64,000 bases of DNA from Paracyclopina nana (lineage: Eukaryota > Arthropoda > Copepoda > Cyclopoida > Cyclopettidae): NCBI GenBank assembly GCA_019096065.1, contig JAGUCH010000006.1, forward strand, positions 4,918,001-4,982,000, in the 5' to 3' direction. The notes beneath the pieces were generated by a model. That model saw only the letters and a list, made by a program, of their open reading frames with translations. It did not search any database and had not been told where the DNA came from. This document shows positions 371 through 35,939 of the stretch, piece by piece. The first letter of the stretch is position 1. Every line of letters begins with the position of its first letter. Position numbers and translations under genes: made by a program.

Positions 371-3300
371 ATGAGGCTCAATTTGGGTGTTGTTCAGCTA
401 GTAGCCGCTGCTCTGCTCATTTCACTGGGTAAGAAAATGCTAAATTGACATCTATCTAATGCAATCAGTGGCTTATTCATGCTTGTAGAACACTTAGACG
501 CGATTTTCCACTCGATTTAAAGCCACCAAGTGCACAGTTTCATGCATCCGCAATTTTGGGCTTTAATCATAAAGATTCATATCTTGGCATTCCATGGAAT
601 TGAATTGGGAACCCAACTCGGTTATCTAGCTGTTTTTTAAACAAATTTCCTTCTTGGCTGCTGAGCACTTTTTTATTTTGATAACAAAAAACTAGTTTGC
701 TTTTGCTTCCTTTAAAGTAAGGCAGCATTTTTCAACAAGCTTAAATAAAGCACGTTTAATGCTATTTTATAGGAAATTGTTCATGGCGATCAAGATCTTT
801 TTTCCCATCAAATTGCAATTAGTTTCCCTTCACTTTTGGCTCTTCGGTATACCTATGGCTTGTCTGTGTTGCCATATGCTGTCTCTTCTGCCAACCTCTG
901 GGCAGTTTTAGTAGCATTTTTGGATCATTTTGGCAAGGCTCGTTTTCAATTGAGTTTAATCGGCCTAATTGGACGTGGTTATACAGCTCTGTTTAATCAA
1001 TAGAGCGGAAAAAGAGGCAATCAAGCCATATTTGACTTTTTTATTGTGCACTTGATTTTTCGCAAAGGCTTTGAATTTTCCCGTGTTAATTACGTAGAAC
1101 AATTGAGCCCTTCGTTCGCAGCCTTGACAATTGCAGAAAGGTTAGCTCGGAATGTCGAGGATTTTTCGCGGAAAAGAGGCATTTTTTCGGCTCGTCAAAA
1201 ATTGCCCATTTTGGGTGATTTTGAACACAGTTACACATAGCGGACATTTCTCTAATATCCTTTGGTCGTTAAGGCAAAACGTAATTGAAAGGGTTCAAGG
1301 TCCTAGTGAAATTATTTCCCTGCTACGTACGTACAACTCTCTAACTCACCCTACAATTTAAGTCATTATAGCGACTGTGAAGTAATTTGCCAATTTCAAA
1401 CGCTCGTTCTATAAACATTTGTTGTCGATGTAAACTATCATTTCAAAAGCAATTTAACTTAATCTGCACTTTGTCTTCCTTTTGGCTATATTTTGTTGCT
1501 GTGCATGCAAGTCAAAACTTTTTTTTCTCTCTCTTAAAAGAAAAATACTTGAGAAAAGGGAAATCGTTTCTCACATAATTCTCACGGCAGCACTGTTCTT
1601 TATTCTCAAAATTTGTAGCTTAGAATTGACTGCGAGTCTTCAAAGTAATGACAAAAAAAAGTTGCACAATGAAAACTGCCAACAATTTTACATGCTATAT
1701 CCATTTTTGCTGCGCAAAAAATGCCCGTTTTCTCTTTTCCCACCGTGCCTCGTTTATTTGCGGTGTGCGTTCCACTTTTGAATAGCTTCGGCCCACAGTG
1801 GCCAAAAATGCGAGTTCATAAAAGAATTACCTTGGGCAAACAGAATTGAAGCGTGAATGACCAATATATTGGGAAAACTTTGGTGAAGCCCTCTAAAGTA
1901 GCAATTGGCTCAACACGGCAATCCACTTTATCATAGGACCGTTTCCCCCCTAAAACTCATATACTATTTTTTTTATGGAAGAGCCCTTATGATAGGAATA
2001 GAGAATGGCACCTTGTGCACCCAACAGCCAATAAAATGACCCCTCTCCATTTCCCAATAATGTATTAGTGCCGACGATATTGATACCTCTTTTCATGCAT
2101 ATATCATGCACGTAATTGAGAAAAATGCATAGGAAATCGTGACTTGCAATGCACCTCTTGATTTATTGTCTTCAAAGGGGATGATTTCTATAGTGGGAAA
2201 TTTTGGCTTTTTCAGTTGTCGGAGAGCGAAAAAAGTTTGAAACCGCCTTGCTTGGGAAACGAGCTCAATTCCAATGCAACGTACAAAGTCCGGATGCGTC
2301 AGAGGTGTCGCTGTGGTGGCAATTCCAGGGGCAGAATTTGACCAGTGCCAACGATGACAACCACCACAGCATCACCGTGTCGAAAACGGCCTCTGGGTCG
2401 GTGACCTCGGAGCTGATTTTGGACCGAGTCGCTTGGAAAGATGAAGGCATCTACACCTGTCTCGCCAAGGAAGTTGGCTCCTCTGATGATCCAACCAAGC
2501 AAGATATCATCTTGGAGATTTTTGGTAAGCTATTATAGTTGTAGTACATGGCGAGGAAGGCGAGGAAAAAGAAACAATTGGCCGCATTGTTTTTGGTTGG
2601 ATGCCTTCACCTGGTTGCTGCTTTTGCATGCTTGGTGGAGTTCATTTGGACACAAAGTCATACTATATATAATGTAATGTACTGCGTTGCATTGCTATGT
2701 AAAAAGTACTCTACTTTTACTGCCTTAACCTTGGCATGACAGTTTTTCCCTAATTGTTGCTATATATCCTGTTCGGCATTAAAACTGACGATGCTTTATT
2801 TTCCTCCAGCCGCACCCAAACACATCAATATCACAAATGGATCAGGCATGACAGGCACAACAACAGAGCTGTCATGCACATACGAGGGGAAACCTTTACC
2901 CACCATCAAATGGCTGGGATTTGGCAAGGATTTGAGCCAGGTGAAAATGTTATTTTTCACTCAGGAGAGGCTTGAAAGCAATTTTCAATTTCTCATTCTG
3001 CAGGATCCGATGAAATATGAAATGACAACATCCAATATCAACGATAAGCAGATAGTGTCATTTCTCAAAATTATGAGCTTGGGCCATCCAGACAATGGCA
3101 CATATTTGTGCCATGGAGAAAACGACTATGGCACAGATGTTGCCATTCTGCAGAACCTCGTCCTGGACAAGCCACAAGTGAGGATTGATTTGGTCGTGCC
3201 AGTGGCCAGAGACAAGATATTTTTCAACTGGACCATCACAGACTGGAATTCGCCTGTCACGGATTATTTCCTCAGTGTAAGTCTTTGTTTGCCTACGGTT

Positions 3301-6300
3301 CGGCCTATGCAAAGTCAGATGAATTCCAAACAAGATTGTACTTTGCTTTCACACATTTGCTTTTGCAGTATCGCAAGGGAGGAGCCTCAGCCTGGGTGTA
3401 CTTCATTGACCAGAAAATCCCCAGGGATGCCACGAGTTTTGTCATGAGGAATCTCACCGCTCACTCAAAGTACCTCATTAAGCTCGCTGCTCAAAACGAA
3501 TTTGGCATGGGCGAGTTCAACCTCTACCATGCTGAAATCAGCACTCTTGAGTACGATCCAACCTATGTACCTGAGGTGGGTGTCAAAGGGATCACGTGGA
3601 ACTCCATCTCTCTGGGCTGGGATCCACCCCCAGTGGCCAAAGTACCCGACATTCTCAACTACATCACTTACTTCAAAATCACTCGACAAACTCCGCTCGA
3701 GGAGTCGGTTGTGTACCAACCGGTTAATCAGTATCCCACATACCTCTGGACCAATTTGGACCCTGCCACTGAGTACTCTTTCCACGTGTACGCCTGCAAT
3801 GGATACACGATGGAATGTGGCCAACCCTCCCAGGTGGTTCAAGGCACCACCGAGGATGGGAAAAGTGGCCCTCCGTCGAATGTGGTGGCCACGTGCAAGT
3901 TTGACAACATCAGTGACATGAATTACGTCGATGTGCAGTGGTCGCCGCCCAAGAGGCCGAACGGAGTCGTGGAGCTCTACAACATCGAGCTAAATGGCCT
4001 GGCCACTTACACTGACCCCTCGGGCTCTGTCAATGTCGACAAGTTCGGGCCCCAGAAGAAGACTGAGGATACGACCAAAACTGGCGTGCTTTCCACCAGA
4101 TTCGATTTCCTGCCAGCCAACACGAATTTCACTGTGAGCATTTGCGCGGAAACGAGGAGCCAGGCGTGCGGTCAAGTGGCCTCTGGAGCCTGCAAAATGA
4201 GAGCCATGCCACCCAAAATGGACCAGCTGAGCAGAGGCTTCCAGTGGGTGAATGACAGGAGGGTGGACAGGGACATTTTCAGGCTGCGTACCACCAAGTT
4301 GAGCCAGAGGAATGGGCCCATTTGTTGCCTCCGAGTCGTTGTGGTCAGAATGAGGCCAGGATCCGGTGCTCAAGATTTGCCTCAAGATCCCACTGATCTG
4401 CCAATGCTCTCCTACAACAAGGTGCACGAGAGCCCCTCCGAGTGGGGAGCTTACATCGCTGAAATATTGGGGCCCAATGCTCTTGGCAAGGATGTCCTTG
4501 TTGGAGACGGCCAAAACACCCTTGCCAATGTTGGCGATGAGTGCCCAGCTTGCCAATCCGGAATCAGAGCTCACCTTCTGCGCTCAGCTCAATATAAGGA
4601 GTCTCAGAACTATCGTTCTAAGAGGTACTAATGAATAATCTAGGGCCCCATCTTGATGATGCACATCTACTATTAATTACTTTTCTTCTCGAGTACAGCA
4701 ACATAAGGAGAGCATTCATAGAGAAAATGTTGTGTGGTACACACGTGCATACGCTCGAGTAATCACGTATTTAGTATGAACAATGATAGCAGTCAACTAT
4801 AAGTGCATTTTTCCCATTCTGTGCAGACCCTTGTATTGCGCTGTGTGTAATAGATAAGCTAGATTGTTTGCTTTTTCCAGAACTGTTGGAGCCTTAAGCC
4901 TGCGTGTCGAAGATGGCTTCCTAGATCCTGGCTCTAATTACACGGCTTTCGTGGAGGTTGTGGTGCCTGAATCTGGCGCGAGCAAAAACATCATTGGCAG
5001 GAGCCCCTATATGGTACCAAGAAAGCCAGGGGAGTACATTTACCCCGACGGGACAGCTGGTGGATCATCCAGCAGCATTTCAGCAGCCATCGTGACAATT
5101 TTGGCTCTACTCGCGTCTCTGGTTACCGTGGCTCTCTGCTTACTTTTGGCGCTCATTTTGCTCAGAAGATACTCAAAATCCTTTGGCCCTGGCAGCCCTG
5201 GAGAAAGTGATCACGTGGATGGTGAATTGGGCCAGGAACTTGATATGAGAAAGTCCTTTACTCACTTTTGCAAGTGAGTGCTTTAATATTTCACGTTAAG
5301 GAGAAACTTCTTCGTCCAATGGATCATATAATGCAATATTTCTGCTTGTTTAGCCAAGCATTTCAATAGTTGTTGAGTAAACATTTCCTTGCGTTGCAGC
5401 ACGATATTCAGAGGCAAGGGAGGCTCGCAGTATTTGCTACCAAGTGGTGGAGATATGGGCAATGTTGCCAAGAGCACCAGCAGCTCTGGCCTCAGAAAGC
5501 CAGTGGACACAAAGCCAATCTCCAAGGATGATTTGGTGGCTGCCTATCTGGAGCGGCACAGAGACTCGGATTTTGGCTTCCAAACTGAATTCGAACAGCT
5601 TCCGACCAGTTTTCCGGACAGGACTACTGAAATATGTGACAGGCCAGCCAACAGGCCCAAAAATAGGTATCCTGACATCAAGTGCTATGACCAGACACGA
5701 GTCCGACTCAAGCTTCCTACTGATGATGAAAAACCTACTTCTGCTGCCTCAGTGGAAGAGGAGGAGAACTCCATATCCAGCAATGGCTCCTCTTCAGCCA
5801 AAGCTTCGAGTGTTGTTGAGAAGATTCCTTCTAGTCAATCTGACTACATCAATGCCAATTACGTTATGGGCTATAAAGACAGAAAGAAGTGGATATGTGC
5901 TCAAGGACCACTTGAGCACACCGTTCAAGACTTTTGGAGAATGGTCTATGAGCAAGTATGTTCCTTCTTTTTTAAATGAATTATGCTTTTCTATCTTAAA
6001 ATCAATCTTCAGAACGTGGAAATGATCATTATGTTAACCAACCTCGAGGAATACAACAGAGTCAAGTGTGCCCAATATTGGCCACAAGCTGGTGACTCCA
6101 CCTTCACACCGTGGCCCAATTTGCTGCTCAACATTCGATTTTGCACCGAAAAACGCTTCTCAGACTACATTGTCAGAGAGCTCACTCTGACTGCCACCAA
6201 GGCAACCATCACCAAAAACGAGGAGGGCAAGGAGCTGGATGTGAAAACGACTGAAACGAGAACTGTCAAGCATTACCACTATCTTCAGTGGAAAGATTTC

Positions 6301-7897
6301 AATGCGCCAGAGTCTGCTCCAGCCATGCTCAGATTTGTGAAGCGAATCAATGAGGAGCACTGCAAGTCAAAGACACTGAGTCCACCCATTCTGGTCCACT
6401 GCTCGGCCGGAGTGGGACGTTCTGGCACACTTGTTGCCATAGATGGACTGATTCAGCAACTCAGAGAAGACAACGAAGTTACCATTCATCGATTGGTGTG
6501 TGACCTGAGACACCAAAGGAATTACCTGGTCCAATCTGCTGTAAGTTTCTCATATCCGAAAATTAATTTGAATATCCTGATATTTGATTAAATATATATG
6601 TCTTTTAGAAACAATACATGTTTGTGTATCGAGCCATCATGGAAATGGCCCAATTTGGGGACACCGAGCTGGAAGCTGCTCAAATCAAACATACGTGGCA
6701 GCAATTGTCTGAGAATGCTGGCAAAAAGCTCGAGTTGGAGTTTGCTCGACTAGCAAATATGGTGGATGATCGGAAAGCTTTATCTGTGGGAACGAGCGAG
6801 CAAAATCGTGCCAAAAACCAGTCTGACACAGTGATTCCATTTGACAGGAATAGAGTCATTCTCACGCCTGATGGAGTGAGGCCTGACTCCACTTATATCA
6901 ATGCATCTTTCATTGAGGGCTACCACAACGATGAATCTTTCATCATCACTCAAGTGAGTCACGAATTAACGAATTCTGAGTGTGTGCACTCCATATGCCA
7001 CTTGATGACATGATTTTTTCATCGCAGGACCCAATGCAAAACACAGTGGAAGATTTCTGGAGGATGGTCATCGAGCACAACATTTGCACTATGGTTCAAC
7101 TGAACGCACCCTTGCCAAATAGTGGGCCCAGCTCCGCTGACTTCTTCCAATATTGGTCAGACACTCCTGGCTCAGAGGTCACCTTTGGCTCTCTACAAGT
7201 CACACTCAAGGCCAGAGAGGTCATGCCCTCCTACGTGAAAAGGGAGTTTGAAGTGTACAACAGCAAAGTTGAGGAGGAGGTGAACTTGACTCATTTTGCA
7301 TACTCTGGCTGGGGCGATGCTCCTCAAAGGCCCCGGAGTCCCAACCCTGGCCAAGGCTCTCCAGAGGTGCCAAGCTCAACCACTGGCCTGTTGGACTTGG
7401 TCGAGCATGCTTTGGCTCACAAAGTGGAGGCTAGCCTGCCTGGCCCCATAGCAGTGCACTGCAGGTACTTAACCATATTCCAATCTGTCTGTTCCAGCCA
7501 CTTATCATATTTCCCTGCATAGGTATGGATCAGAACGAAGCTCTGTTTTCGTTGCTCTGAGCTGCCTTGTGCAACAGTTGAAAACTGAGGCAAGAGCTGA
7601 TGTCTTCACGACTGTGAGAAAATTGAGGTCTCAAAGACAAGGAATGGTGCAGCATGTGGTAAGTGATAGAAATCGCTATGAAACACCCCTATAAATCCAT
7701 GTTACATAGACTTTTGCCTTTGAAGTTGCGTAGCGTAAAAGCTAATTAGTGCCATTTCCTCTTGCTTGCAGAGCCAGTACAAGTTTATTTATCGGGCCAT
7801 CTCGGATTATGTGGACCTTTACCGCAACAAAGATGATGAATACGCCTACTCTGTGCCAGTGAATGCGGTCAACAACCCCCAGCAGAAATCTTTATAA
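371..7897 (+). CDS. Ptp69D-like: receptor-type protein tyrosine phosphatase, Ptp69D-like
   Basis: This is a transmembrane tyrosine phosphatase; relatives act in axon guidance and cell adhesion. I place 12 exons: 371-428, 2216-2524, 2810-2940, 3004-3276, 3369-4624, 4881-5273, 5400-5955, 6013-6540, 6609-6953, 7028-7464, 7523-7658 and 7772-7897. All have GT-AG borders and compatible phases, giving about 1515 aa. Exon 1 encodes a signal peptide (MRLNLGVVQLVAAALLIS). Two Ig-like domains follow, seen by Cys and the YTCLAKE and YLCHGEN motifs. Then come FN3 domains in exons 4-5, a membrane-proximal region, a TM helix at about residues 743-771, and two PTP domains. D1 has the full VHCSAGVGRSGT loop (Cys at about 1122), but the WPD loop reads WKD. 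D2 keeps a CX5R loop (HCRYGSER) with WGD in place of WPD. Domain order and length match insect Ptp69D. Intron 1 is 1.8 kb; the rest are short. AATAAA lies near 8129. Confidence 0.88.
429..2215 (+). other. first intron of the receptor phosphatase gene
   Basis: AT-rich 1.8-kb intron between the signal-peptide exon and the first Ig exon. Several short open frames lie here, but none shows a domain or splice support. I see no gene inside it. Confidence 0.7.
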
Positions 7898-8200: not shown

Positions 8201-11200
8201 TTAGCTTTCTATTTCAATAGACTGAATGTCAGCTTCTAAAGTAGTCTCTTCAGATGGAATGTCGGAATTAATCCTTGGATCAGTCAAATTTTGTAAGTCC
8301 TCAGCGAAAACAGTGGTCTCGTCAACTGGGTCCTCCATCATTGCCCTTGCTTCAATGTCACCACCATCTTTCTGGGCCTATATATGAAGAAACTAATGAA
8401 GAGAGGCTTCATAAAAAGGCAAGATAATACTTCATACGTCTGGTGAAGAAGTTGATGCCAATTCCGGTTGAGGGTCTTCTTCAGTGCCATAAAATACCAA
8501 TTGCCAATCATTCAAGATGGCTGGCTTATCTCCAGCATTGTTAATGATCAATGTCCACTCGCTGCCTTCATCTGTTACACTGGATTCGCCCCAGAAATGT
8601 ACACTCATCATGGGCCACTCCTGGAAAGCTCCCAATCCTGTTCGCACCTTATCGAAAGGCCTCGGTGCCAGCAAAACTGACATTGTTCCACTTGGAGACC
8701 TGCGCGAGAAAGCAAAGTCATGTAGCAATGAATTAATAATAAAGCGGCTTTTTAATTACACTAAGAGAACAGTGAGTGCTCCTCGTTCAGATCCAGAAGT
8801 CAAGTCAATCAATAAGTGAATATGCTCGAGGAATTTGATGTTGCCACAATTTGAGACGTTCAATTTGGAAGCTTCTTCAGAGTTTGGCTTGATCAAAATT
8901 GGCCTATTCTTGTTCACTCCAGATTGCCCTGGCTCAGTGGTGCACTTTGCCGACTCGGGCACATTTTTCCATTGCTTGGCAAGCTTCACCATAGCTCCAG
9001 CATCCATGAGTCCAAATCCATAAGCATGGGAGAACGTCAATCCAGCTCCATTTTGCTTCCAGTCAACAGACTAAAGAATTACATTGTATCAAAAAAAGAA
9101 TGAACTGTTTGAAAAGCTTTGGAATACCTGCAAATGGCCCTGAGGAATGGCAGTCCTTACAACAATATGCTGCAAATCTCGCCAAGTCAAGTCCGGATTA
9201 GCCTCTAGGACCAAAGCTACAATGCCAGCTGCCATCGGGCTTGAAGCCGAAGTGCCAGTGTGCTGACTGGTGCATTTTCCATGAAGATCTGTTGTGACCA
9301 CCTTTTTCTCCGGACGAGCTCCCTTGGTGGTTCCAGAGCTGTACGTTGTTGCGAGCGAACTGGAGCAGGATTCGGAATACCACGGCGTTTTCCCCGTCTC
9401 CGACACCGAACTGACACTCAAGGTGTAAATGGAAGTGGTATAGCCATCGCAGTTGCAATTGTCCAAGTATTTGCCACCATTTCCGGAAGCCCAGACAAAT
9501 ATGGATCCCTTGCCATTTCTGCCCTTCCGGACTCCATCTTCCAAGGCCAGTTTGGCGAGTGGTCCAGGACCATCCACCGTCTTGCCATCATCATCAGGCC
9601 CCCAAGAGGCTGAATAGATGTCAATGTGGTCTCGTTTAAAGCTAATGGCTTTGGCCTCTAGCACATCGATGATGTTGCCATCCAAAATTCTCACTCCTCC
9701 AATTTTGGCGTTGTAAGCTATGCCCACAGCACAAGCAGAATTGTTGGCAGCTGCAGCCACTGTGCCAGCACACCTCGTTCCATGCTTGTTTGAGTTGAAA
9801 AAGTCATACCTGGGGAATGGATCATCATCATTGTCATTGAAGTCAATGCTGGCCTCCTTGTCATAATTCTCCTTCAAGTCGGGATGGTTCCACTCGACTC
9901 CATCATCAAGGATGGTGACAACCACACCCTTTCCAGTCACACCTTGGGCCCAAGCCTCTTCAACATTCATATCCAGACCTTTGCCACCTCTGTTCAAGTA
10001 CCACATTGCAGGCCAAGCTTCATCATTCAAATTTGTCTTGAACTGGCTCCTGTCTACATCTGGCCATACTTCTTCTTCAGTAGAGGGAGGCTTTTGATTG
10101 CCAAGCCCGCCAGTGAGTCCAAATAGGAAACTGGGGTCAAATTGGAACTGAGGCGGCAACGCAGATTTTCCAGAGGGCGATTGGCTACGTGGTGGGGGAG
10201 GTCCAAATTGGTTGTTGCTGGGTGGGCCTGAAAAGCTCCTTGCAGGCAATTGATTTGGTGGGAATCCATTTGGAGGCTGTTGGGGAAACCTTCCCTGCAA
10301 TTAGATAAATAGTTACTGAATTCAATTTTGATTACTAATTTACTTACTTGTGGTGGTTGGGAAAACCTTGGTGGACCCTACAATGAAAATAGCTCTGATA
10401 GTAGATATGTGTGATAATAATGCATGTTTTCAATTTACCTGTACAAAGTTTGGAGGGAATCTTGGAGCACCCTGAAATAAGAAAAAAGTAAGAATTTATA
10501 GCAAAACTCAAAGAAAAAGTGTAAGCAGGTATTTGAGCAGGCTAAAGAACAATGTCGCCGTTGCATGATAATTATCTTTGTTATGTTTTTTTTTGACGAA
10601 GTCAATATAGTAATTAATTTATGTGGTTTATCTTACTTGTCCTCCAAAACCTTGAGGGGGACCAAAGGCCTCGGGAAAGCCTGTTGGTGGCTGGGGATTA
10701 TTGCCTGGCTCGTCGTTAACTTTTACAGGGTCTTTTTCAATACCCACACTACCAGCCCCCAAAGTGACACAGGAGAGGGATTTCTTGTCACAATCTCCCC
10801 ACTGACCTGATACTGCATCTCCACTGGCATCAACTTGTGTAGCGCACCACTCAGCTCCATTACTCGAGTGGTCACTTGTGCATTCAAGGTAGGTCTTGCC
10901 TTTATAGCCGAATGGGAAAATACATCTCTTTGAGGCCTTCTTCTCGGTCTCCACAGTGTTCACAAAGCACAGTTGGCTGCCTGTGCTCCTTAAATCATCT
11001 TGAGGCACTGGCACTCTCTTCACTCTGGTTAAGCTCTTGTCTTGCGCATGAAATGAGCTGATCAGGGCATTGGCAGCGAACTTTTCAGTTAAATCTTCGG
11101 CTGATCTCCTGGCTCTCCTGGAGCTCTGCTGGAAGTGGTACAAATTGGACTCTGGAATGACCTCTCCAAGGTTCTCCAAGTCATGGGCTTCAGCCACTTC

Positions 11201-11311
11201 TTTGGCATGTTCCAGGCCTCCTGGCACGTGTAGCACCCAGTCATTGGAAGCACTGGTGAGGCTGCCGAGAGTGAAAACTAGCAATAACAGGCTGACCACT
11301 GTGGCATGCAT
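8201..11311 (-). CDS. furin-like proprotein convertase with an inserted FN2 domain
   Basis: This is a subtilisin/kexin-type serine endoprotease expected to cleave precursors after dibasic sites in the secretory pathway. Exons (transcription order): 11311-10637, 10471-10439, 10377-10348, 10294-9128, 9070-8760, 8699-8438, 8377-8201, giving about 884 aa. The ATG at 11311 opens a signal peptide (to about residue 21) and a prodomain that ends in RVKR (96-99). An FN2 domain follows (130-174, four Cys, [14 protein letters not shown]), then a Pro/Gln/Gly-rich linker (about 200-316), part of it encoded by two tiny exons of 33 and 30 nt. The catalytic domain has Asp376 (ILDDG), His417 (HGTRCAG), oxyanion Asn518 (ASGNGG) and Ser595 (GTSASSP). 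Asn rather than Asp at 518 argues for furin/PC1 over PC2. A P domain follows ([17 protein letters not shown]). The tail is acidic with no Cys-rich repeat or TM, so the enzyme is predicted to be soluble. Confidence 0.9.
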
Positions 11312-11892
11312 GTTCAAGCTCTTCTTCCACTGCTCAGCTGCAAGAATAAATATTAGTATTCAAATAAAGATACTCAATGCCTGGCTCTAAAGGTGTGTAC
11401 ACGTGAGTGTGTGTGCATCCACCTCTGCCCAGACACGAACTGCGTTACATAGCGGTGAACGAGCTTTAAAAGGGCATGCCAAGCTATACCCAAACGCTTC
11501 TTCTATATCACACACTTCTTCTATACATCGACAAAAGCTGCATGTGTCCTGCTTATCTCGTGATTTTTGGCTCTTTGTTCAATCTTCCTCTTTTTAGAGT
11601 GCGAGCGTGCTGTAAATGCTGGTGTGGTTAGTTAAACCGCTTAAAAATGTTGTGCGCGCATTTTGTGTGCTTTGTTGCATATATCTTACCAGGAACAGCT
11701 ATCAAGTTCTAGCCATCAAACGAGCGCGCACGTGGTCTGATTGTTATTTATAAAAAAAAGATATGGCTCACTAAAGAACGTATGGAAGCATGAGTAGCAA
11801 AATATCGAGCATGATTGAAAAGAGTAGAGCTTTTGATAGAAACAAAGGATCGGTGATGCCAAATCACCATGTTTCCTCTCTAGTAGACACAT
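11312..11892. other. upstream region of the convertase gene
   Basis: No coding exon is recognised. On the minus strand a pyrimidine-rich TTATTCTTGCAG lies about 30 nt before the convertase ATG, so a 5' leader exon or a trans-splice acceptor is possible. The remainder is AT-rich. Confidence 0.4.
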
Positions 11893-23764: not shown

Positions 23765-25118
23765 CTATGCAGCGATGGCTTGAAACTTTCGACTTGAGCT
23801 GCAGAACTTGACTGCAGAATCAAACATAGATAAAATACTTGCTCCTAATAAAAGACCCAAATACCCTCCAAAGTCTGATAAAAAGTTTGGGAACCCGTAC
23901 AACTTAATTTCTTCCTTCAGCTCAACCTAAAAAAGAAAGGGACTTTTTCTTAACTTTCCGACTTCTTTTTTCTTATCTTACCATGTCGTTTATCATGAAT
24001 ATGTACATTTTGGTCTGGTTGCCATTTTCATAATTTTGAACTTCTGACGAAATTTGGCTGTGCCAAGTTAAGCTTTCGCAGCTTTTTGATGCACATCTGC
24101 TTTCCCTTCTGAGTTGATAAATGGCCCCCTTGAATTTTTCATAATCATCCTTTGTGCTACATTGTATTCCTACAGAATAATTGAGCTGATTCATCTTATT
24201 TTGAATTTAATTAATTTATGTACCTGACTGTTGGCTACTTGTTGTACTCCAAGGTAAAGAGCAATTTATTTTTGCCTCTATGAAGTCACTCAAACAGCTA
24301 CGTTTTTTAGTATCAAGACAGGGATTCCCATCTCTATTAATAGATCTCCTTACTTCAACTGACAAAGCGATATTCTTTTCATTATGAGAACTATCAGTTG
24401 TGACAAAGAGAGCATTATTCCACTCAATCAATCCATCGAGGATTATTCCATCTTCTGGTTCATGAAAGTACATAAAAATGGGAGATTTCAAAGCCTTTGA
24501 AGCACCAGTAAGAGATGAAATAACAACCTGTTAATTCAAGCCATTTCAAATACAGAAACTGATATGGCTTGTATTTAGAGCATTACATTTGGTTTCTTCT
24601 TATTAGCCAACACGTGAGTGGTATAAAGTTGCAAATTCCATGTTCCACATTTGAAAATGGACATCCCCGAATCAGGTGCTGAGATGAGGAAACTTTTTTG
24701 AAACGTGCCTTCAAAATAGAAGCCAAAATGCTTTTTCACGGCTTGTTCATCCTTCAGATTTATAAATTGATTCATACCACTGAAAAGTTAAGTGCTCTAA
24801 AATGCATCTTATTAATTTCTGAAAGATAGTCAACAACCTTTCTTCTAAATAAATTTCTGCATCAAAAAGGTCCCACATTGATTGTAGTTTTGTTTCAATA
24901 TCCTCAAAATTTGTAATGTTGGATCCTGGATAGTTGTTGACTATATTAGGGCAAATGGAAATGCTTGGGAATGGTTGCCCATATTGCTTGCTCAAAGATA
25001 TGCCATAGCCTGGATGTAACAGATTGTAGAATGAGTTAGCTAAAGCAATGACCAATCCTGCTATCAAAAGTAGCTTTAGTGAAAGTCTCACTGCACGTAT
25101 TGCCTTTGAGAACGCCAT
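23765..25118 (-). CDS. DEG/ENaC-type sodium channel 1
   Basis: This is an amiloride-sensitive-type cation channel subunit of the plasma membrane. Exons: 25118-24838, 24779-24587, 24527-24224, 24169-23982, 23926-23765, all phase-consistent, giving 375 aa. There is an N-terminal TM1 (LKLLLIAGLVIALANSFYNL) and the post-TM1 family motif FPSISIC. The extracellular part is Cys-rich with CSLPW. The pre-TM2/TM2 signature is DFGGYLGLLLGASILSMFD (family G-x-S-x-L-S pattern). It is short for the family (usually over 450 aa), like its neighbours. One donor (GTTGTT after exon 1) is weak. It is the last gene in a head-to-tail row of four channels on the minus strand. Confidence 0.85.
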
Positions 25119-26526
25119 ATTTCATATCAAATAAGTCAAAAGTGACTGTTGTGTATCTAAACGGGAGGAGTCTAAGTCAACTTGGCAATGGTGAAATTAA
25201 TGTTAACGAGCCACAAAGCAACTAGCCTTTCCATTTATTTTATTATCAATTTGTATTATGCTATTAGCGAATCAAATAAGTTTCGCTTAAACTCGAGTTA
25301 GCTGAAAGATTTTCATGGATGACTTTTAGCGCGTGATCCTCGACCGAATGATCTCGACAAATTCGTCAAAAAATGACAGAACACTGGCACCCAAAAGGAG
25401 CCCCAAAAATCCACCGAAATCCGACAGAAAATTAGATAAGCCATACAACTTCATCTCTTCAATTACAGTTGCCTGAAAATGATTTTCAAAGCTTCCAAAA
25501 TTGGCTGTAATGACACGAGCTATCTGGGCTTACTTCATCTTCGTTCATGTAGTATTGCAATGTTGTATGCTGACTGTATCCAGGTATTTCAGCCAGAACC
25601 TGATGCCTTGTATTGAGGTGATCGCAATTTTGGGGTTGGCATACATTTTCATTCGCCAATTTCACCATGATTTGCTTGAAATGCGAAAATTCTCGTCTCG
25701 TGCTGCAGGTTTTGTCTGTGATAGCTCGAAGTAATTTCATGGCATAAAAAATTATAGAAAATTACCACCTACAGTAATTTGATTTTTCCCATGGGAGGCT
25801 ACAATTTAGCGATGACTCAATAAATTCCCTAACGCATGAATGCAATTGCATCGAGTTCGCGGAGTTGCAGGCATGATTTTTTCTGTCGATATTGCGAACT
25901 TTCTCCATGGACAAATTGATGATCCTGAGATTGAGTGTTGTGTTCCTGGTAAAGTACTGGACATTTTTCCAATCCAAGTATACTTCACTCAATGCAGACT
26001 GCATGTATCCATGGTAATGGACAGTGAACAGAGAGGAGTGATCTTCTCCCATTTTGTCCGCTCTCATAATAATCTGAAATAATTTCCATGACTCATTCAT
26101 ATTTAAAGATATAATTTAAATACCATGGGCTTTTTCTTGTAGTTCAAGATTTTATAGCTAGGTGGATTAAATGTAACACAACGAAATGCTGAAAACTTTG
26201 CTTTATCTGTGCATCTTATTGTTTCCTGAATGACATCATCTTGATAAAAGTACGTTTGAACTTGAGTTTCGTTCAACACGTCAATCTTGAGCCTAAATAA
26301 AAAGGTTGGGTTATTTTTAATCAATGAAATGTTGCTCACTTTCAAATTCGCAGCATTACTTACGGATTGGCCTCATCATATCCATATTCCATAGTAATAC
26401 TGAACATTTCCTTGACTGAGATTGTGTTTTTCATGAACTCATCGAATGTTGAAACGTTCCCAGAGTTACGATGAACGCACAGAGTGAAGCTGGGAAACTC
26501 TGCTCCTTTCTCCTTATAAATACTTA

Positions 26527-26542
26527 CCCCACTAGACCTTTT
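26527..26542 (+). repeat. left terminal inverted repeat of the CACTA element
   Basis: CCCCACTAGACCTTTT, identical over 16 bp to the complement of 34275-34290; similarity fades after this. Confidence 0.9.
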
Positions 26543-27093
26543 CGGAGTTTTCTAAAACTTTTTTTCGGCAAAACGTGAACTACTCCAAATGTTTAGTGAA
26601 ATCATTGAAAACTTGCAACTTTTTCTCGTAAGAATTTGAGTAGTAGTTTGTTGTTGCTGACGTCATCATCTACTCTAAACACCTATATGTTTTCTCTCAA
26701 AAAATTGCTGCTTTATTCTAGATTTTCTTTACGCAATTTATAGTGCAACAATTTCTAACTATTTATTGTTGAAAAAAAGTTTTTTGTGTTAAAAACATTT
26801 ATATCTAACAATTTTATGTTTTCTTCTGCTTTCAGAATTTGTACTTCTGCACGCCGGTACTTCGACAAAAGCAAATGAGAGAATTTTGTAATGAATTCCT
26901 ATGGATATACAGTGTTATTCCTTTATTTTTCAAGAATTAGTTTTGTTCTTGTTATCATACGTTATAAGTTACCATAATAGATGGCGGTCTCGCACTTAGC
27001 ACATGAAAGAAAAAAGTGTCAAATTGTTTTTGAAAACGATAGAAGTGCGGTTTGAAAACATACAATTATTATCCAGTTTTGGGAACATCTTGT

Positions 27094-30000
27094 TCACACA
27101 AAGGTGCCATCATGTGGCACACAAATCAAGTGCTCTCCATCGTAAACGCCTTTGCCGACAACATCATCCAGAGAGACATTGGTGACGTGCTGTGACAAGG
27201 AGACAAACTTTTCCACTCCAGCTATTTTCCAATTCAAATGGTTTCCCTCAGGAATGTCTGCTCTGACTGTGAAGAATTTTTGGCATTGCACGTTGGTTCC
27301 TTCAATTGACAAGATTTGGTAAAAAACTCTGTTTCGTGTGTAGATAATGTTGTCGCCACTGCGAGACATGCCATCAGGTGAGTAGCTGACGACATTGCTG
27401 CATTCGTGATTAGTGGCAATTCGTCCAAAAATCTTGGGGATCACTTGTTTTGGGAATGATGGTGTGTTTGGTTTCATGTCCTTTTTCATGTGACTAAATG
27501 CTCCCTCAAACAACAAAGCCGACAGTTCTGGCAAGCGGGCATCATCCCTTACTTCTTTCAGGTGAGTGAACAAGTGCTGATTCCACGAGCAGTTGATCAA
27601 GCCATACCTTGTCTCCAGCCACTGATAGTACATTTGCATGTTTCGGTCGATGTCGCAAGTTGCCTTGATTTCCTCCCACATGGCATCATCAACTAGGTGA
27701 ATTCGCAAGAGCCAGCAGAACAAATACCAAGTGCGGCGCATCTCAGCGTGCTCAACATAGGAACCCAACGCTTTGCCAAAGAGGATGAATCCACATAGTG
27801 CCAATGAAATGTACTCTTGGGTCTTGTAAAAAGCCAGAGCTGTGGTCAAGGGCCGAGGATACCTGTTGAATTCTCTGGGAATCTTGACTTTTGTCCATTG
27901 CCTGTCGAAGTCATTCATGATACGACTTTGCTCCAACGTCAATTTGTTCGAAGTCTTCTTGATTTTGAGCATGAGCTTAATGAGTTGCCTAAAAAAAAAA
28001 GGAGAAATAAGAAATCAAAGCAAAAATCATTTCAAATATTGCCTTACTTGATACATCCACTAAGATTATGCATCGGTTCAATGTTGAATTGCTTCACAAT
28101 GTCAAAGTTTGGAAGCAAGGCCAATGGCGAGGCACCAGTCAATCCTTTGAGTTCTTCTGACGTGAAATTGTCGATACCTTGGTGCACAATCTGGAGAGCC
28201 ATTTCGCGGAACCATTCACCAGTGCGTCTTTCAGCAGTGAATGTCATTGAAGGGAATGTCATCTTGTGTCCAACTCGAATGCCTTTGGCAAAACAACGTG
28301 AGCAACTGTAATAGCCAGAGTGAAGATGGAGGCACATTAGCTTCGCTCGGATTGGCCCATCTCCAATGAACCTTGTGAGCACTAATCCCGCTTTTTTGAT
28401 TGCTGCCAAAATGTCACTCAATATTTTGATAGGGTTAAGTCGACTATTTCTTGTAAATGTGCATTCCAAGAACGTAAACACTTTTGCAAGGTGGAAATTG
28501 GCCACACAGCACGTTCAACTGGTCATCTGTCGATTTTCCTATGGGGACACCATCCATAAAGAGAACAACTTCTTTTTTTGGCTTATGTCCAGGATGAATT
28601 GCCATGTGCATCTTGTGAGAAAATTTCCACACATCGACAATTTCGACTGTCGCATATTCTGACAGCTTGACAAACTGAGAGCGTGGAAATTGCAAACGTG
28701 GATAGACATCTGATTGGATGTCATGAATAAGTCCCGATTCTCGTTCTTGAAATTCATAAGCCATGACCACTTTTGGCATTTTCTGGAGAAACCTTTTTTT
28801 GCAAGGCTTGTACCCACGGAGTTTTCGACCTGGCATAGCAGCTCTTATAAAGTCGAGTACTTCTTTGCACGCAGTTTCATTACAATTTGTCTTAGTCATA
28901 ATGAAGTTATACACTTCGAAAAATCCAACATTTTTGGCGTCTTGCTCAGTCATCTCGTTTTCTCGCGCAAAATACTTAACATATTCTTTGTAACCAAGCT
29001 TCATGTGCGCTGGATCAAAGAGGCTGTCTCCTAGTACATGATTCTCCTCTGGTCTCAAATGCCCGTTCACGTCCTCTTCCTCCTCTACAATTGGCTCTTC
29101 ATCTGACGAGGTATTGTCTAAGTTATCTTCATTGTTGGGTGGACGCTCAACAACCTCGTCGTCTGTTTCCTCTTCACTCACAACTGGGGAATCAGGATCA
29201 GGTTGGCAAGAATTATCTGAGTCCTCATCAGACTCATCAACAACACCTTTGGCTTTGATCAGAGGTATTTCTACCTCCTCTGCAGCAACGTCTCCATTTT
29301 CTTGTGGATCATTGTTGTCATGGTTGCTGTTGGGACTTCCATGGTTGCTGTTGTCAAATGAAATTTGATTTAGCCGGTCATGAAAACTAAAGTCTCCTTC
29401 TTGGTAGTTTTGGGTCGGGTCAATTTCTACGTCAGTTTCATTGTCTGTTGTCGTTTCTAACTCGACAACGCTATCGTTATACCTATCTTGGGTTGGCGTG
29501 TTCTCGACAATGTTTTCTGTTGGACGCAACGGTGGCAAAGCTGGCTCATCTGGCAAATGAATATTTCGTTGCGTTGCAGGTACGTCTGGAGGAATGTTGG
29601 CCTGTTCTAAACTTCTGAGCAAACCACTCGTTCCTGGTTGTTCACCAATAGAAATGCGTTGACCTTGAGTGCCGCTTGTGCCTGGTTGATTTCCGACCGA
29701 AATACGTCGGTTTTGTAGACCACTGGTGCCAGGCTGATCACCAACAGAAACATTTGGTGCCAAAACAAGTCGACGGCGTTTTCTGGAAAGACCTTTTGGA
29801 ACGAACGCCTCAGTGGGGCCTATCTGGCTCGGGAACCCAGTTGGGTCAATGTCACTTTGAAATTGTGATGTGGCACTGTTTTCGTCAATAGCATCATTTC
29901 TCGTGACTTCGCTGTTAGAACCACGTGCTTCATCCTGAGAATCATCGCTTGATAACTCCTCTTGAATTCGTTTTCGACGCTGCGTCAAGGATTCTGTAGG

Positions 30001-30376
30001 TTCAACTTCGTCCATCTCGCTGTCACTTGAAGATGCCTCATTGTCTGCTGCTGCTTGCTCTTCAACTAATTCCGAGATCTCCTTGTACACATCCCTGATC
30101 GCTAGTCCCTGCTTAAGAAATGGACTCTCGACAAACTCTTGCCTGAAAAAACGAACAGACATTAATCTCACAATTTGTCGCTTAACGTGAAGAAAATATT
30201 TCTTACGCTTGATTTCCAGGAACAAGGCTGCATTCGTTGTCGACAATTTCCTTAATTCTTCCAATGTGCCGCTTTAGTCCTAGCAATTTTCTCGCCATTC
30301 GTCGTCGATCCCTTTTTGACTCCTTTCGAATGGGCGGAATGTCATTGTTGCCCAAGTTTTTGCGCGGACGCCCCAT
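27094..30376 (-). pseudogene. CACTA transposase (tnp2-like), one frameshift
   Basis: Exon 1 (30376-30207) starts MGRPRKN, a basic AT-hook-like start. Exon 2 (from 30142) holds a long acidic, repeat-containing region (copies of SVGNQPGTSG). It then enters a catalytic-type region with VVLFMDGVPIGKSTDDQLN and VYVLGMHIYKK. There the frame breaks: TAG follows at about 28444, and the protein continues one frame over as NPIKILSDILAAIKKAG, RFIGDGPIRAKLMC and YYSCSRCFAKG. FNIEPMHNL follows, up to donor 28048. Exon 3 is 27988-27094. The GDGP(I)RAK, Cys-pair and EPMHN motifs resemble tnp2/CACTA transposases of plants and animals. One inserted base near the break would explain the frameshift, so this copy is probably not autonomous. 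Confidence 0.72.
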
Positions 30377-30680
30377 TTTAAGGGGAAATTGAATTTAGTT
30401 TTGCCTCTTTAGAATTATTGTCGTTGTTTTTTTCTTCGCGTCTCAAATAATGGCCATAGTGCTGAGAATCTTTGACGACAGCTGCGGAAAAAGGCGCAAA
30501 AGCTGAGAAAGATCAACAATCATGACAACAATACATCGGCAATAGCTGACAATTAATTGTAGCAGAAAAGTTGTTGTTTGACGTTGCAAAAATTATTGTT
30601 TGAATATTTTTCTTGTCAAATCGCAACAACTTCCGGCGACGCCAAAGACGGCACATATTTCAAAATTTGAAAAGCGAAAA
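30377..30680. promoter_or_regulatory. shared divergent region between the two transposon genes
   Basis: About 300 bp separates the transposase ATG (-, 30376) from the ATG of the second gene (+, 30681). It should carry both promoters. I see no clear TATA box; GTTGTTTTTTTC-type tracts and TGCAAAAATTATTG lie within it. Confidence 0.4.
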
Positions 30681-33600
30681 ATGGCAAATCTCAACACAAG
30701 TGCGAGTAAAAGGAAGGCCCAAAGAGGCTCCTACAGTCGCCTCATCATTGCTGTGCTTGATGACGACGAAACCTTCTCCTATCTTAACCTTGACGACTGG
30801 ATCTCGAGTGAAGGAAAGGCGTTTGATGAATATTTCAAATTCGACGTGACCAAAAAGCTGGACAGGAACAATGAGCGATATTTTGCAGCCAAAATCCCGT
30901 GGTATGGCGAGACCAAGGACGTGAGGGTTTTTGTTCGGATTGAAGATGGTATAGTTAACCGCTTATTGTTAATGTTGACCAAATTAAAACGATTGAAATA
31001 TTGCAGGCGTGGAGCAATACCGAATTGACGAGCAGGTGAAGATTTTCAACAAGGAAATTTCTGTGGAACCTGAGGGATCTCGAATGCAAAAGTACATTGA
31101 GATGGAGATGCATTGGTTTGAGAAGATGATGAAAGACAAGATGTACGTTCGCAAGGATCCGCGGACCAATACGTTCATCTTTCCTCCTTGGAACAAGCCG
31201 GCGACGAGAAAGCACACTCAGCAAGTCACCGACGTTTTGTCTGGTTCAGACTTTGAACGTGCGGGTCCCTCAACTGAAATTGGCGTGAAGGTGCGAGCTT
31301 TAAAGCCAGGCCTGAAAAGGAAGAACACCAGCGAATACATCATTCCTGGCCAGACGCAACCTAAATTTAGGAAGGATGGCAAAGATGCTGTGGCTATTTC
31401 CATAGATGAAGCCAAGAAATTGTACAGGCAATATGTTCCAATTGACCAAATCAAAGATGTGCAATTGCCCCCCGGACAAGTTAGTGTGGTCGTGGCCTCA
31501 TCACCGCCCGCAATTTTGGATTTGAGTCAATCATCGGCAACAATCCCATCTGGATCTCAGGTGATGCCTGTGGACTTTTCACAGCAGGAGCAACTTGAGG
31601 AACCAGTTGCTGAGGACATTCCAGCTGTCAAAGAAGTCCAATTGCCGGCTCCACAACATGATGAGTTCGTTGGCGTCTTTGCTGTAAGTTTGCTGTAGCT
31701 TTATTTCTATGGCTTCTCAAAAGATATTGATTTCAGCCAACAATGAATGAACTGAAAGAAGCCGTGCGTGAAGTGATCCAGGCTGCAAAGGTCGAGATTC
31801 TTGCTGAAATTGAAGTCAGATTTCAAACGCACGAGGGCAACATTAAAGGCCACATTGACTCCGAGCTTGGAAAGGTCCGGAAGCAATTGGACAACAAGTT
31901 CTTGAGAGTAGGAGTAAGTGATTGCTTTTTAATTTCAAAGAAGCACATTTATTCTTTAAACAATCTCTTTAGGAAATATCAAAGGCTACAAAAGCCATCC
32001 AAGAGAAAGTCCAAGGAATGAGTGGCCCTCATCAGTTTGCTCCTGGAACTCCAACAAAGTCCACTCGACTAAATGCTGACCTAAAGGGAAAAGCACGAGG
32101 CATCCTTTTCAGAGTTGTGCCATTTAAAATGTGCGGCAAGGCATGTGATGCCTTCTTTGCATTCCATTTCGTGCAAGAAGAAATTGTGGACCATGTCTTT
32201 CCGGTACTCAACAAGGCTGAGCTCGGAGGCATCAATGCCAACATTGCTAAAGCATTAATGCAGACATTTTTCACGCCATATGCCAGAGCCCACATGATTT
32301 ATGGCAAAGTATTGAAGTAAGTATCATCAGTAATCTGTGAGAAATTGTTTGGTAATTGCTGTAACATTTAACTAGTTCACTGAAACTCCTCAAATTTGGA
32401 AAACGGCCCATTCCTCGAGGCTTGTTCAACTTGGTAGAGCACAACCTTGTCACCAGGTTGTCGCAAAAGTTTGCAGCTACTCAAGAAGTAGATCTTGCGT
32501 ACATGAGCGATCTGCACGAGACGTGCGCAAACATTTTCAACACTTCAAGGACAGCCTACTTGAATGCAGCAATCAAAAATTGCGCAACGACAACCGAGGC
32601 TGCTGAACTCATTGTGGAACAAGAGTTTGAGTTCCACGAAGCAAACAAACATGTGCACGACGACAACTTTGTTTTGCCAAAGAAAGCGGACGTTTTTAAG
32701 ACGATTTACAATCGCAATGAGTTCAAGCTTCCCAAGGAGCGAGAGTCACTCGGGCTGCACAATGTAGGAAAAAGGTTTCCTTCGAAAGAAAATGTTTTCC
32801 GCCCTGTCTTGCTAGACTTCACGTACGAGTGCAAGGATGTGGAAGAGATGATCGAGATAATTTGCGTTTCTGCTCACTTAAATGGGCAAGATTTCTCATC
32901 ATTGACATTTGATCAACTGCTTGACTTTCCTGAGGTAACTTAACCATTTCTTATCATGCTTACAATGTTTGCAACAGTTTCTTAACTTTAGTTGCCCGAG
33001 ATCTACCATGATGTCGTTAGTAACATCCGAGACATCAACATCCTGGTGGAAAAGTACTCGGCCACAGCTTGAAACTACCTGCCAGAGGTGGCCATCAATG
33101 AAAAACTGTCAGCTAAGCAGCTCAAAGCTAGTGAAGGAACATCTGCACGAAGAAATTTGAGCCGACAGATCAAGGAGCAAGTGTCTAAGAAGCAATATTT
33201 GCTCTCGCAAGAGTTTGCAGATGAAGAGGATCAAACTCAAGTACCTGGCAGAGCAGTGTATGCAGAGATAAATTTGAGTTACAGAAAGAATCTAACGTGC
33301 AAGTTGTAAAATGGCAATTTCTTTACAGGATGTTGAGTCAGAGTACAGCGACACCAACACTGATGAGACTGAAATGCCAGTTCCCGAGAGACTTCCAGAA
33401 ACAGCTGCTTTCCGAGTTTACAACAAGCGTCGAGCAGCAATGGAGGCTGCTAAAGCTATGCAAAAAGAACTTGCGGAAAAAAGTGGCCAAACTCAAACTC
33501 CGCCAGTAAGCCCGCTTAAATATTAACTTACGCACCCCAAGTTGAAATTGCATTTAATCAAATTGTCAATATTTTTTATTGAGAAAGCATATTTACTAAA

Positions 33601-33729
33601 ACTTTTAGTAACACAATCCTGTTCTTCCAGAATCCTGGCCCAATCAACCTGAGTGCCTCCTTTAGCACGCCAAAACCTTCTCAAGATAAGGTTCCAGAGG
33701 AGATCCTCAGCCCAAGCGACGATGAATAG
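30681..33729 (+). pseudogene. second (accessory) gene of the CACTA element
   Basis: Exons: 30681-30948, 31008-31683, 31737-31913, 31973-32316, 32376-32934, 32992-33240, 33329-33505, 33631-33729. The start is MANLNTSASKRKAQRG. An N-terminal segment of about 145 aa (LDDWISSEGKAFDEYFKFDV, WYGETKDVRVFVRIED) is followed by a low-complexity linker. A coiled coil (MNELKEAVREVIQAAKVEIL...) and a folded C-terminal region come next. An in-frame TGA at 33070-33072 interrupts the frame, which then continues (NYLPEVAINEKLSAK) to 33729. By position it may serve the role of TnpA in CACTA elements, perhaps DNA binding, but I recognise no family. Confidence 0.6.
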
Positions 33730-34274
33730 CTCAAGTACCTCATGAAGACTTGCCAGTTCCAATAATTCTCCTAGAAAAACAGAATGCTTATTGAAAAAAA
33801 AATTGATTGACATAAACATATATATAGTCGTATGAGATAAGAGATAATGCTAATATGCCATATTATTACTAGCAAATAAAAGAGATGCCATTATTTTCAT
33901 TTTTCTCATCAATAACAGCCGTAAAGGCCACCAAAGGCCGCCCTGATAAAGAGCAACGTTTCAGCAGCAATAGTGACATAGTATTCAACGCTGTAACTCG
34001 ACAAACAAAGTTTAGAACATGCGTAACAGCTCCATTTGCACAGTATTCTGTTGTCCGCTTCTTTAGATTTAGTGACTTTTCAGCAACAATAACTATTGAA
34101 ATAATGTTTACATCTAGCGAGAAATTTGTTGAAAATTATTGGAGCACAGCTGACTTTCGGCAACAATTTCTAACGTTTCTGCTACTAGAATGGTACGTTA
34201 TCGTAGAAAATTATTGAGAAAAAGTTGCTTTTTGAAGTACTAGACTGACGACGATTTGCAACAATTTTCACTCA

Positions 34275-34290
34275 AAAAGGTCTAGTGGGG
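34275..34290 (-). repeat. right terminal inverted repeat of the CACTA element
   Basis: AAAAGGTCTAGTGGGG, the complement of the left end, directly followed by the ATA target copy inside channel 2 exon 1. Confidence 0.9.
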
Positions 34291-34572
34291 ATATGCCAAT
34301 TTTGGGGTATACCAGATTGTGCAGAGCATTCCCAATAGCAATTAAAAATAGTATGGTTAAACAAGTTTTGAACAAAACCCTAACATTATGAAGCAGTCCA
34401 ACATTCCTCATGCTTTCTTAGTCAATATTTAATATTTTTATTATTTGTAAAAGGGTGGGAACGAATACCTAGTTGTCAAGGCCAACATATTTGCCCTGAG
34501 CAAATCTTGGCAAAATGCAATACATAATACAAACTTGTATTTCTTGCTCAGCGTTTGAAATACTTTAGATGA

Positions 34573-35939
34573 TTATTCTTTTATTTGGATCTTTGGATTC
34601 TTGTAGCATTTACATGAACTCGCGAATTTATCAATAGCATCAAAAAAGGACAAAATACTCGTACCCAAAAGGAGCCCCAAAAATCCTCCAAAATCTGACA
34701 CGAAGTTGGATATTCCATACAACTCCACTTCCTTGGTAACTGTTGTCTGAAAAGTATAGTATGTATAGAAGAATATCCATTCCTAGATAAAGTGATTCAC
34801 TAACTTCATTGTCATTTATGTACAAGAGTACAGTAGTCAGGTTGTCGTTATGCCCAGGCAATTCTGCTAAAACTCGAAACTTTGTATTTATGCGGTTGCA
34901 GTTTTTAATTTTGCACACTCCCTTGTAAGGTAGGTTCAACATAAGTGCTTTAAAATCATCAAACTCTTGCCTTGTCTGGCATTTTTCATCTATTTTATGG
35001 CGAAGAATATGAGTCATCTTAAATTAACTTGTTAAACAATATAACTCACAAGTACTTTGATGGGTTGACCACGGAAGGCCACATTTTAGAGTTGATTCAA
35101 CAAAATTCTCAACACAAGATTCTAAAAGTACTGAGTTAGCTGAGTCACAAATGTGATCGCGTCTGTTAATTTTGTGAATTCTCTCCATTGACAGCTCCAC
35201 TAGTTTGACGTTGTAAATATTCGTCCCTCCAATGGTGAAATACTGCATGTTACTGTAATCCCAATAATTTTCGCTAATTGTCGATTGTTTGTATCCGTGG
35301 TAGTAGACATTAAATATTTCAACGACTTCTTGCCCCTTCGCAGAAGCTTGAATTTTAATCTGAAAATATATTAAGGAAACTTACAAGCTAGAACTCACTT
35401 AAGGATGAGCCAACATTAGAACTGAAATTACCATTGGTCGGCTTCTATATTTTCCGTTTAAAATCGACATTTTTGGCGGATCAACTGTTACGCACCGGCA
35501 TGCCAAAAATTTGGCAATATCTTTAACTATGAATGTCTCTCTCATCATGCTTTGAACCTTAAAGTGCTTTTCAACTAATTTCACATTCGATAGTTCCACT
35601 GATAAGCTGAATCAGATTGTTGAAAAAAATGTTATACTTCAGAAGGCAAACTTACTGGTTTGCTTCATGGAAGCCAAGTTCAATGGAAATATTGAATAAA
35701 TCCATGACTTGGCTCGTTTCAGGTAAAAACTCACTGAATGAAGTAACGTTTGCCGTCAGCTCATTCTGCGGGCACAGAGTGAAGCTGGGAAACTCAGCGC
35801 CAATCTCCTTGTGAACAGACAGTCCAATTTCTGGATCCAGAAGATTTTTAAAAGCATTTCCTATTGCAACTACAAAAAATAAGCCCAGGACAATTTTTAA
35901 TATTGGCCTTAATTTTGTGATGACACTGTTATGTTTCAT
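34573..35939 (-). CDS. DEG/ENaC-type sodium channel 3
   Basis: Exons: 35939-35656, 35606-35432, 35359-35050, 34989-34805, 34746-34573, giving 375 aa. TM1 is ILKIVLGLFFVVAIGNAFKN, followed by FPSFTLCP. The extracellular part has CRCVTVDPP and CGLPWSTHQ, and TM2 carries DFGGFLGLLLGTSILSFFD. The 60-bp intron between exons 3 and 4 (GTGAGT...AAATAG) is among the shortest in the window. It is the intact closest model for channel 2. Stop at 34573 lies only 161 bp before the channel 2 start. Confidence 0.86.

Follow-up and report, generated by a model that had tools for sequence, protein, structure and literature searches.

Transposons of the CMCT clade are described as encoding a transposase with catalytic residues D, D and E, with C(2)C and H(3-4)H motifs between the second D and the E, and as leaving target duplications of 2-5 bp (PMC12730594, partial text), while the animal TRC elements of the CACTA superfamily are described as having ends that begin with CCC and 2-bp duplications (PMC1636069, PMC4298943, partial texts). 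Here we examine a 7764-bp element of related type that interrupts exon 1 of a DEG/ENaC channel gene, which we call channel 2, in a 64,000-nucleotide stretch of the copepod Paracyclopina nana (contig JAGUCH010000006.1, positions 4,918,001 to 4,982,000; this whole stretch is the window, and positions are those of the window). We consider it very probable that a CMC-clade cut-and-paste transposon entered exon 1 of this one gene of a tandem DEG/ENaC array at a TA. The transposon, with TRC-like ends and two divergent genes, would have duplicated the TA and left one extra base at one end. The locus is a clear but ordinary case of gene disruption by a transposon, and a clean animal example of exon disruption by one of the CMC type; the insertion alone leaves existing knowledge unchanged. 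A literature search for transposons inserted into channel genes of this kind returned nothing relevant.

The interrupted channel gene

The features of channel 2, with the evidence for each in brackets, are:

34411-25326, minus strand: channel 2, the interrupted DEG/ENaC gene (joined flanks and four further exons)
34292..34411, minus strand: exon 1, upstream part, from the start codon to ...YPKIGI (joined frame)
26364..26524, minus strand: exon 1, downstream part, S-IYKEKGAEFPSF... (joined frame)
26124..26292, minus strand: exon 2 (hand-placed borders)
25773..26073, minus strand: exon 3 (hand-placed borders)
25534..25715, minus strand: exon 4 (hand-placed borders)
25326..25472, minus strand: exon 5, with the stop (hand-placed borders)

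The right flank of the element encodes MRNVGLLHNVRVLFKTCLTILFLIAIGNALHNLVYPKIGI (...VYPKIGI, 34411-34292, minus strand), and the left flank encodes IYKEKGAEFPSFTLC... (IYKEKGAEFPSF... from 26521 downwards, minus strand). When we joined the flanks with one TA and without base 34291, so that the element and 3 nt were omitted, we obtained a 281-nt exon 1, and this exon together with the four further exons makes an open frame of 1080 nt (359 residues and a stop). The introns are GT..AG at 4/4 and no stop lies inside the joined frame, the exon borders beyond exon 1 having been placed by hand to suit the frame and the paralogues. A preliminary description of this DNA, made from the letters alone, had held that the rest of the gene carries no lesion, and we agree: channel 2 shows no lesion, no sign of decay and no excess loss of conserved residues, keeping 69/80 of the residues that are invariant in four relatives, compared to 69/77, 69/76, 69/89 and 69/77 for the relatives themselves (a comparison made without channels 1 and 4). 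Apart from the insertion, channel 2 has four introns (25326-26364), all of them short, at 50-71 nt.

The joined frame matches the Pfam family of DEG/ENaC sodium channels (ASC, PF00858) over residues 216-346 (E=1.6e-11; 44.3 bits, compared to a cut-off of 23.6). Channel 2 thus resembles known channels of this family in its C-terminal half, which scores above the cut-off, and in having tandem paralogues, but differs from them in the interruption of exon 1. We presume two membrane segments, as in DEG/ENaC channels, and take exon 5 to contain the second of these together with a selectivity-filter-like GAS.

The DEG/ENaC genes lie in a tandem row, all on the minus strand of the window, in the order channels 4, 3, 2 and 1; those other than channel 2 are:

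about 37557-36180, minus strand: channel 4, a DEG/ENaC paralogue (window search)
34639..35939, minus strand: channel 3, neighbouring paralogue with a continuous exon 1 (window search, relatives read)
23795..25118, minus strand: channel 1, neighbouring paralogue with a continuous exon 1 (window search, relatives read)

These paralogues allow the joined exon to be compared with uninterrupted ones. The claim that removal of the element and 3 nt gives an exon 1 of the length and phase seen in channel 1 fits the sequence of that gene, in which (start 25118) a GT follows at nt 281 (AAAG/GTTGTT, a weak, putative donor); exon 1 of channel 3 is 284 nt long and ends in the same phase as the joined exon of channel 2. 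When we searched the genome (92 Mb in 10 contigs) with the joined exon 1, we obtained 12 matches at E up to 0.01, namely the two halves of channel 2 and 10 others. All 10 others span the junction in one piece, and channel 2 alone gives two. The Ser restored at the junction stands at the same place in 5/6 relatives read (channel 1, channel 3, L043, L045 and L047). Either flank, searched against the genome, has a single full-length site. The flanks of the element derive from a single DEG/ENaC gene, channel 2.

We considered that the halves might come from different genes or fragments, brought to either side of the element by a rearrangement such as recombination between two elements. Ends derived from two separate insertions would be expected to show an imperfect target duplication, of the kind described below. 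However, the halves join to the codon, the exon is collinear with 10/10 other exon-1 matches, a search of the window found no other partner beside either half, and the order and strand of the array are undisturbed. We therefore regard a rearrangement as very improbable. The same comparison answers the possibility, raised as a ground for refutation in the preliminary description, that paralogue alignment might assign the halves to different genes: the exon 1s of the paralogues run straight across the junction.

Ends of the element and target site

At the insertion itself we distinguish the following features:

26525..26526, unstranded: TA, presumed 2-bp target duplication, left copy (flanking bases, frame, relatives)
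26527..34290, unstranded: CMC-type (TRC-like) DNA transposon in channel 2 exon 1, 7764 bp (inverted ends; relatives' ends alike)
26527..26542, plus strand: left terminal inverted repeat, CCCCACTAGACCTTTT (perfect, 16 bp)
34275..34290, minus strand: right terminal inverted repeat, the same CCCCACTAGACCTTTT (perfect, 16 bp)
34291..34293, unstranded: extra base 34291 and right TA copy 34292-34293 of the presumed target duplication (from the relatives' 2-bp duplications)

The borders of the element are at 26527 and 34290. Its ends read CCCCACTAG, that is, CCCC..GGGG, and the exact 16-mer CCCCACTAGACCTTTT occurs at two sites in the window and in the 92-Mb genome, both of them element ends, with none elsewhere. 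With up to 3 mismatches allowed there are still just two sites in the window, compared to an average of 0.36 in 100 shuffles, 4 of which reach two such sites. The preliminary description had one mobile element cleanly splitting exon 1, with inverted ends exactly between the exon halves; both statements hold, since the ends at 26527-26542 (plus) and 34275-34290 (minus) are perfect, and the flanks rejoin into an open frame.

An assembly artefact that put the element into the exon is about as improbable as a rearrangement. Both coding lesions of the element (see below) could also be sequence errors, but each exact element end is found a single time in the genome, the sole other site there for the left fifth of the element is 70% identical, and the junction coincides precisely with the inverted ends, where the footprint is 2 to 3 bp.

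The target site is less regular than the ends. In gene orientation the 3-bp flanks of the element are TAT and TAA, which is not a perfect 3-bp repeat. TA/TA with one additional base is the best reading of the target copy, because the complete relatives described below show 2-bp duplications and the reading frame fits; a 3-bp copy with one change (TAT/TAA) suits the frame but not the relatives. The earlier proposal of a 3-bp target copy is thus right in that removing 3 nt restores the frame, but the flanks are an imperfect match and the relatives duplicate 2 bp.

Several observations weigh against the insertion of a transposon into a single gene as we read it. The target duplication of the window copy is imperfect (TA and AT immediately adjoin the two ends), and it requires one extra base or, if 3 bp long, one change. 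Channel 4 (GTVRES) has no Ser at the junction. The ASC match at residues 216-346 lies wholly downstream of the insertion, such that Pfam itself is no test of the join, and two channel 2 exon pieces searched separately gave no ASC match in Pfam. Finally, the flank searches revealed no second haplotype, empty allele or element-free duplicate in this assembly.

Relatives, genes and class of the element

A search of the genome with the transposase core yielded at least 152 matches, including the window copy. We fetched 20 transposase loci, several of which were chosen as likely pairs by equal scores. Six near-identical pairs are 99.4-99.9% identical over more than 6 kb and a seventh is 98.6% identical over 2.1 kb; the six are L022/L023, L024/L025, L026/L027, L028/L029, L030/L031 and L032/L033. 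The identity of these six fetched pairs points to very recent activity of the wider element family in this genome. At the pair borders, the left end reads CCCAACTACG, CCCCACTACG, CCCCACTTCT or CCCAACTAGG, and the right end TAGTGGGG or TTTGTGGGG. The shared sequence stops exactly at CCC/GGG in 3/7 pairs and one more outside base is common in 4/7, and some families may end one base beyond CCC. We also observed tandem repeats of about 215 bp near the left end of one family, as off-diagonal matches (L032 2505-3178, L033 2374-3048).

The complete relatives with both ends read, three copies only, all carry 2-bp target duplications (CT/CT, GA/GA and AT/AT), the CT/CT and GA/GA copies being near-identical to each other. 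The AT/AT copy is the nearest relative, a 7777-bp element on C5 that is 76% identical in the core. Thus, the family appears to leave 2-bp duplications. We found no close copy of the window element: its left fifth has one other place in the genome (70% identity), and the remainder was compared as protein pieces or against the fetched loci.

The genes of the window element are:

28444..30273, minus strand: N-terminal part of the transposase, with the first catalytic D (stop where relatives read on)
28044..28514, minus strand: middle part, in another frame, with the second D and C(2)C (relatives aligned)
27094..28014, minus strand: C-terminal part, with H(3)H and E, after an apparent short intron (relatives aligned)
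30681..33729 (right border approximate, by eye), plus strand: second element gene, divergent, of several exons (homology to pieces of the C5 relative and of other copies)

The transposase piece at 28444-30273 stops where all whole-core relatives (11/11) continue, and the protein resumes in another frame, which amounts to a frameshift. The second element gene is interrupted by an in-frame TGA at 33070-33072, a position occupied by a residue in the C5 relative and in two others; the protein of this gene is 40-73% identical to that of the C5 relative in seven pieces, none of which, among those searched, scored above the cut-off of any Pfam family. Because of the frameshift in the transposase and the TGA in the second gene, this copy as assembled is predicted to be non-autonomous, with no full-length transposase, and it would need another copy to move it. 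The heptamer GCAACAA occurs five times in the outer 900 bp and three times in the inner 6864 bp of the element, although 48/300 shuffles hold some equally frequent 7-mer.

To class the element we relied on the transposase motifs, the ends and the target duplications. The motif alignment omitted six near-identical partners and L019 and L036 from the 20 loci, and L018 was entered as two pieces. In all 11 whole-core relatives the D, D, C(2)C, H(3-4)H and E aligned, with 64-65 residues from D to D and 261-269 from the second D to the E, and the window transposase carries the same D, D, C(2)C, H and E residues across its three separate pieces. The window element and its relatives therefore share D, D, E, C(2)C and H(3-4)H with CMC/CMCT elements; the relatives' 2-bp duplications fall within the 2-5 bp described for these, the duplication of the window copy being imperfect, but CCCC..GGGG differs from the 5'-CA..TG-3' of most CMC/CMCT elements (PMC12730594, partial text). 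Likewise, the element is like the TRC elements (SmTRC1 and its relatives in animals and fungi; Spongebob) in its CCC ends, CXXC and length of several kb (PMC1636069, PMC4298943, partial texts), and the relatives share the 2-bp TRC target duplication (3/3), whereas the window copy requires one extra base. However, the eumetazoan TRC motif [LVI]-D-x-[LM]-H-x3-L-G is kept only in part (IEPMHNLSGC in the window), and the ends CCCCACTAG are unlike the TRC description as far as it is given there (PMC1636069). With plant CACTA/EnSpm elements the resemblance lies in two genes, a DDE transposase, CACTAG near the ends and a presumed cut-and-paste mode, but those elements start at CACTA and leave 3-bp duplications, whereas here CCC precedes it, lying inside the element in independent insertions, and the relatives duplicate 2 bp in 3/3 (PMC4158355, partial text).

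Searches for the Pfam family Transposase_21 (PF02992) gave no match in the three window pieces, 4 relatives or the genome, and 14 control genomes were silent too. The transposase pieces matched no Pfam family, and a PDB profile search with the transposase alignment gave no match up to E=1. On these sequence features we call the element a TRC-like transposon of the CMC clade, the closest description that we found being that of the animal TRC elements, and we place it no further because the TRC motif is only partly kept and Transposase_21 has no match. The earlier label CACTA is thus apt at the level of the wider CMC clade but not in its canonical sense, given the CCCC ends, the relatives' 2-bp duplications and the absence of a Transposase_21 match, for which the control genomes were silent as well. 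PIF/Harbinger elements have the 3-bp target TWA; we set this class aside, as C(2)C and H(3-4)H are present in the transposase and the relatives' 2-bp duplications vary in sequence. A literature search for arthropod elements that combine CCC ends and 2-bp duplications found nothing relevant.

Effect and age of the insertion

Read-through from exon 1 continues for 7 residues into the element before a stop (...PKIGI-SPLDLFE, stop), which presumably falls just after the first membrane segment of channel 2. Thus, the insertion most likely creates a null allele, from which a channel would be made only if splicing removed the insert. Loss of one copy may be tolerated in a tandem channel family such as this one.

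We considered whether the insert might be spliced out as an intron through a cryptic donor and acceptor at or near its ends, yielding a slightly altered channel, as with the suppressible CACTA alleles of plants. Among the in-phase GT/AG pairs near the element ends, 25/197 keep the frame open, one of them combining a donor 22 nt ahead of the insertion and a TTTTAG acceptor that lies 25 nt short of the element end. However, pairs were counted irrespective of site strength, and this number simply follows from the abundance of GT and AG dinucleotides. The lack of excess loss of conserved residues in channel 2 (69/80) also fits such splicing. In soybean there is a precedent for splicing despite a 13-kb CACTA insert, which there lies within an intron (PMC4219821, partial text). 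However, a 7.7-kb intron would be unusual for channel 2, given the lengths of its other four, and we consider such splicing improbable, if somewhat less so than an artefact or a rearrangement. Slightly less probable than such splicing in general is the fuller version, in which the insertion is tolerated, splicing takes the element out of the messenger as a new intron and the channel is altered just after the first membrane segment; if true, a transposon would have been turned into an intron in an animal gene.

We turn to the age of the insertion. The preliminary description had suggested a recent or polymorphic insertion, neither of which our data show: the flank searches revealed no second haplotype, and the element carries two coding lesions, although the channel is without decay. 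The lesion counts, two across about 5.8 kb of coding sequence in the element and zero across the 1.1 kb of the channel, amount to no difference (the channel would be expected to have about 0.4). With no close copy of the element, there is no copy divergence by which to date it. The observations are compatible with, but do not date, a fairly young insertion by a copy that was perhaps already damaged; the insertion site could help to date element activity when individuals are compared.

Elsewhere in the window, we named two groups of open reading frames by eye: those at 2740-7522 (plus strand) resemble a receptor-type protein tyrosine phosphatase, and those at 9089-11359 (minus strand) resemble a subtilisin/kexin-like proprotein convertase.

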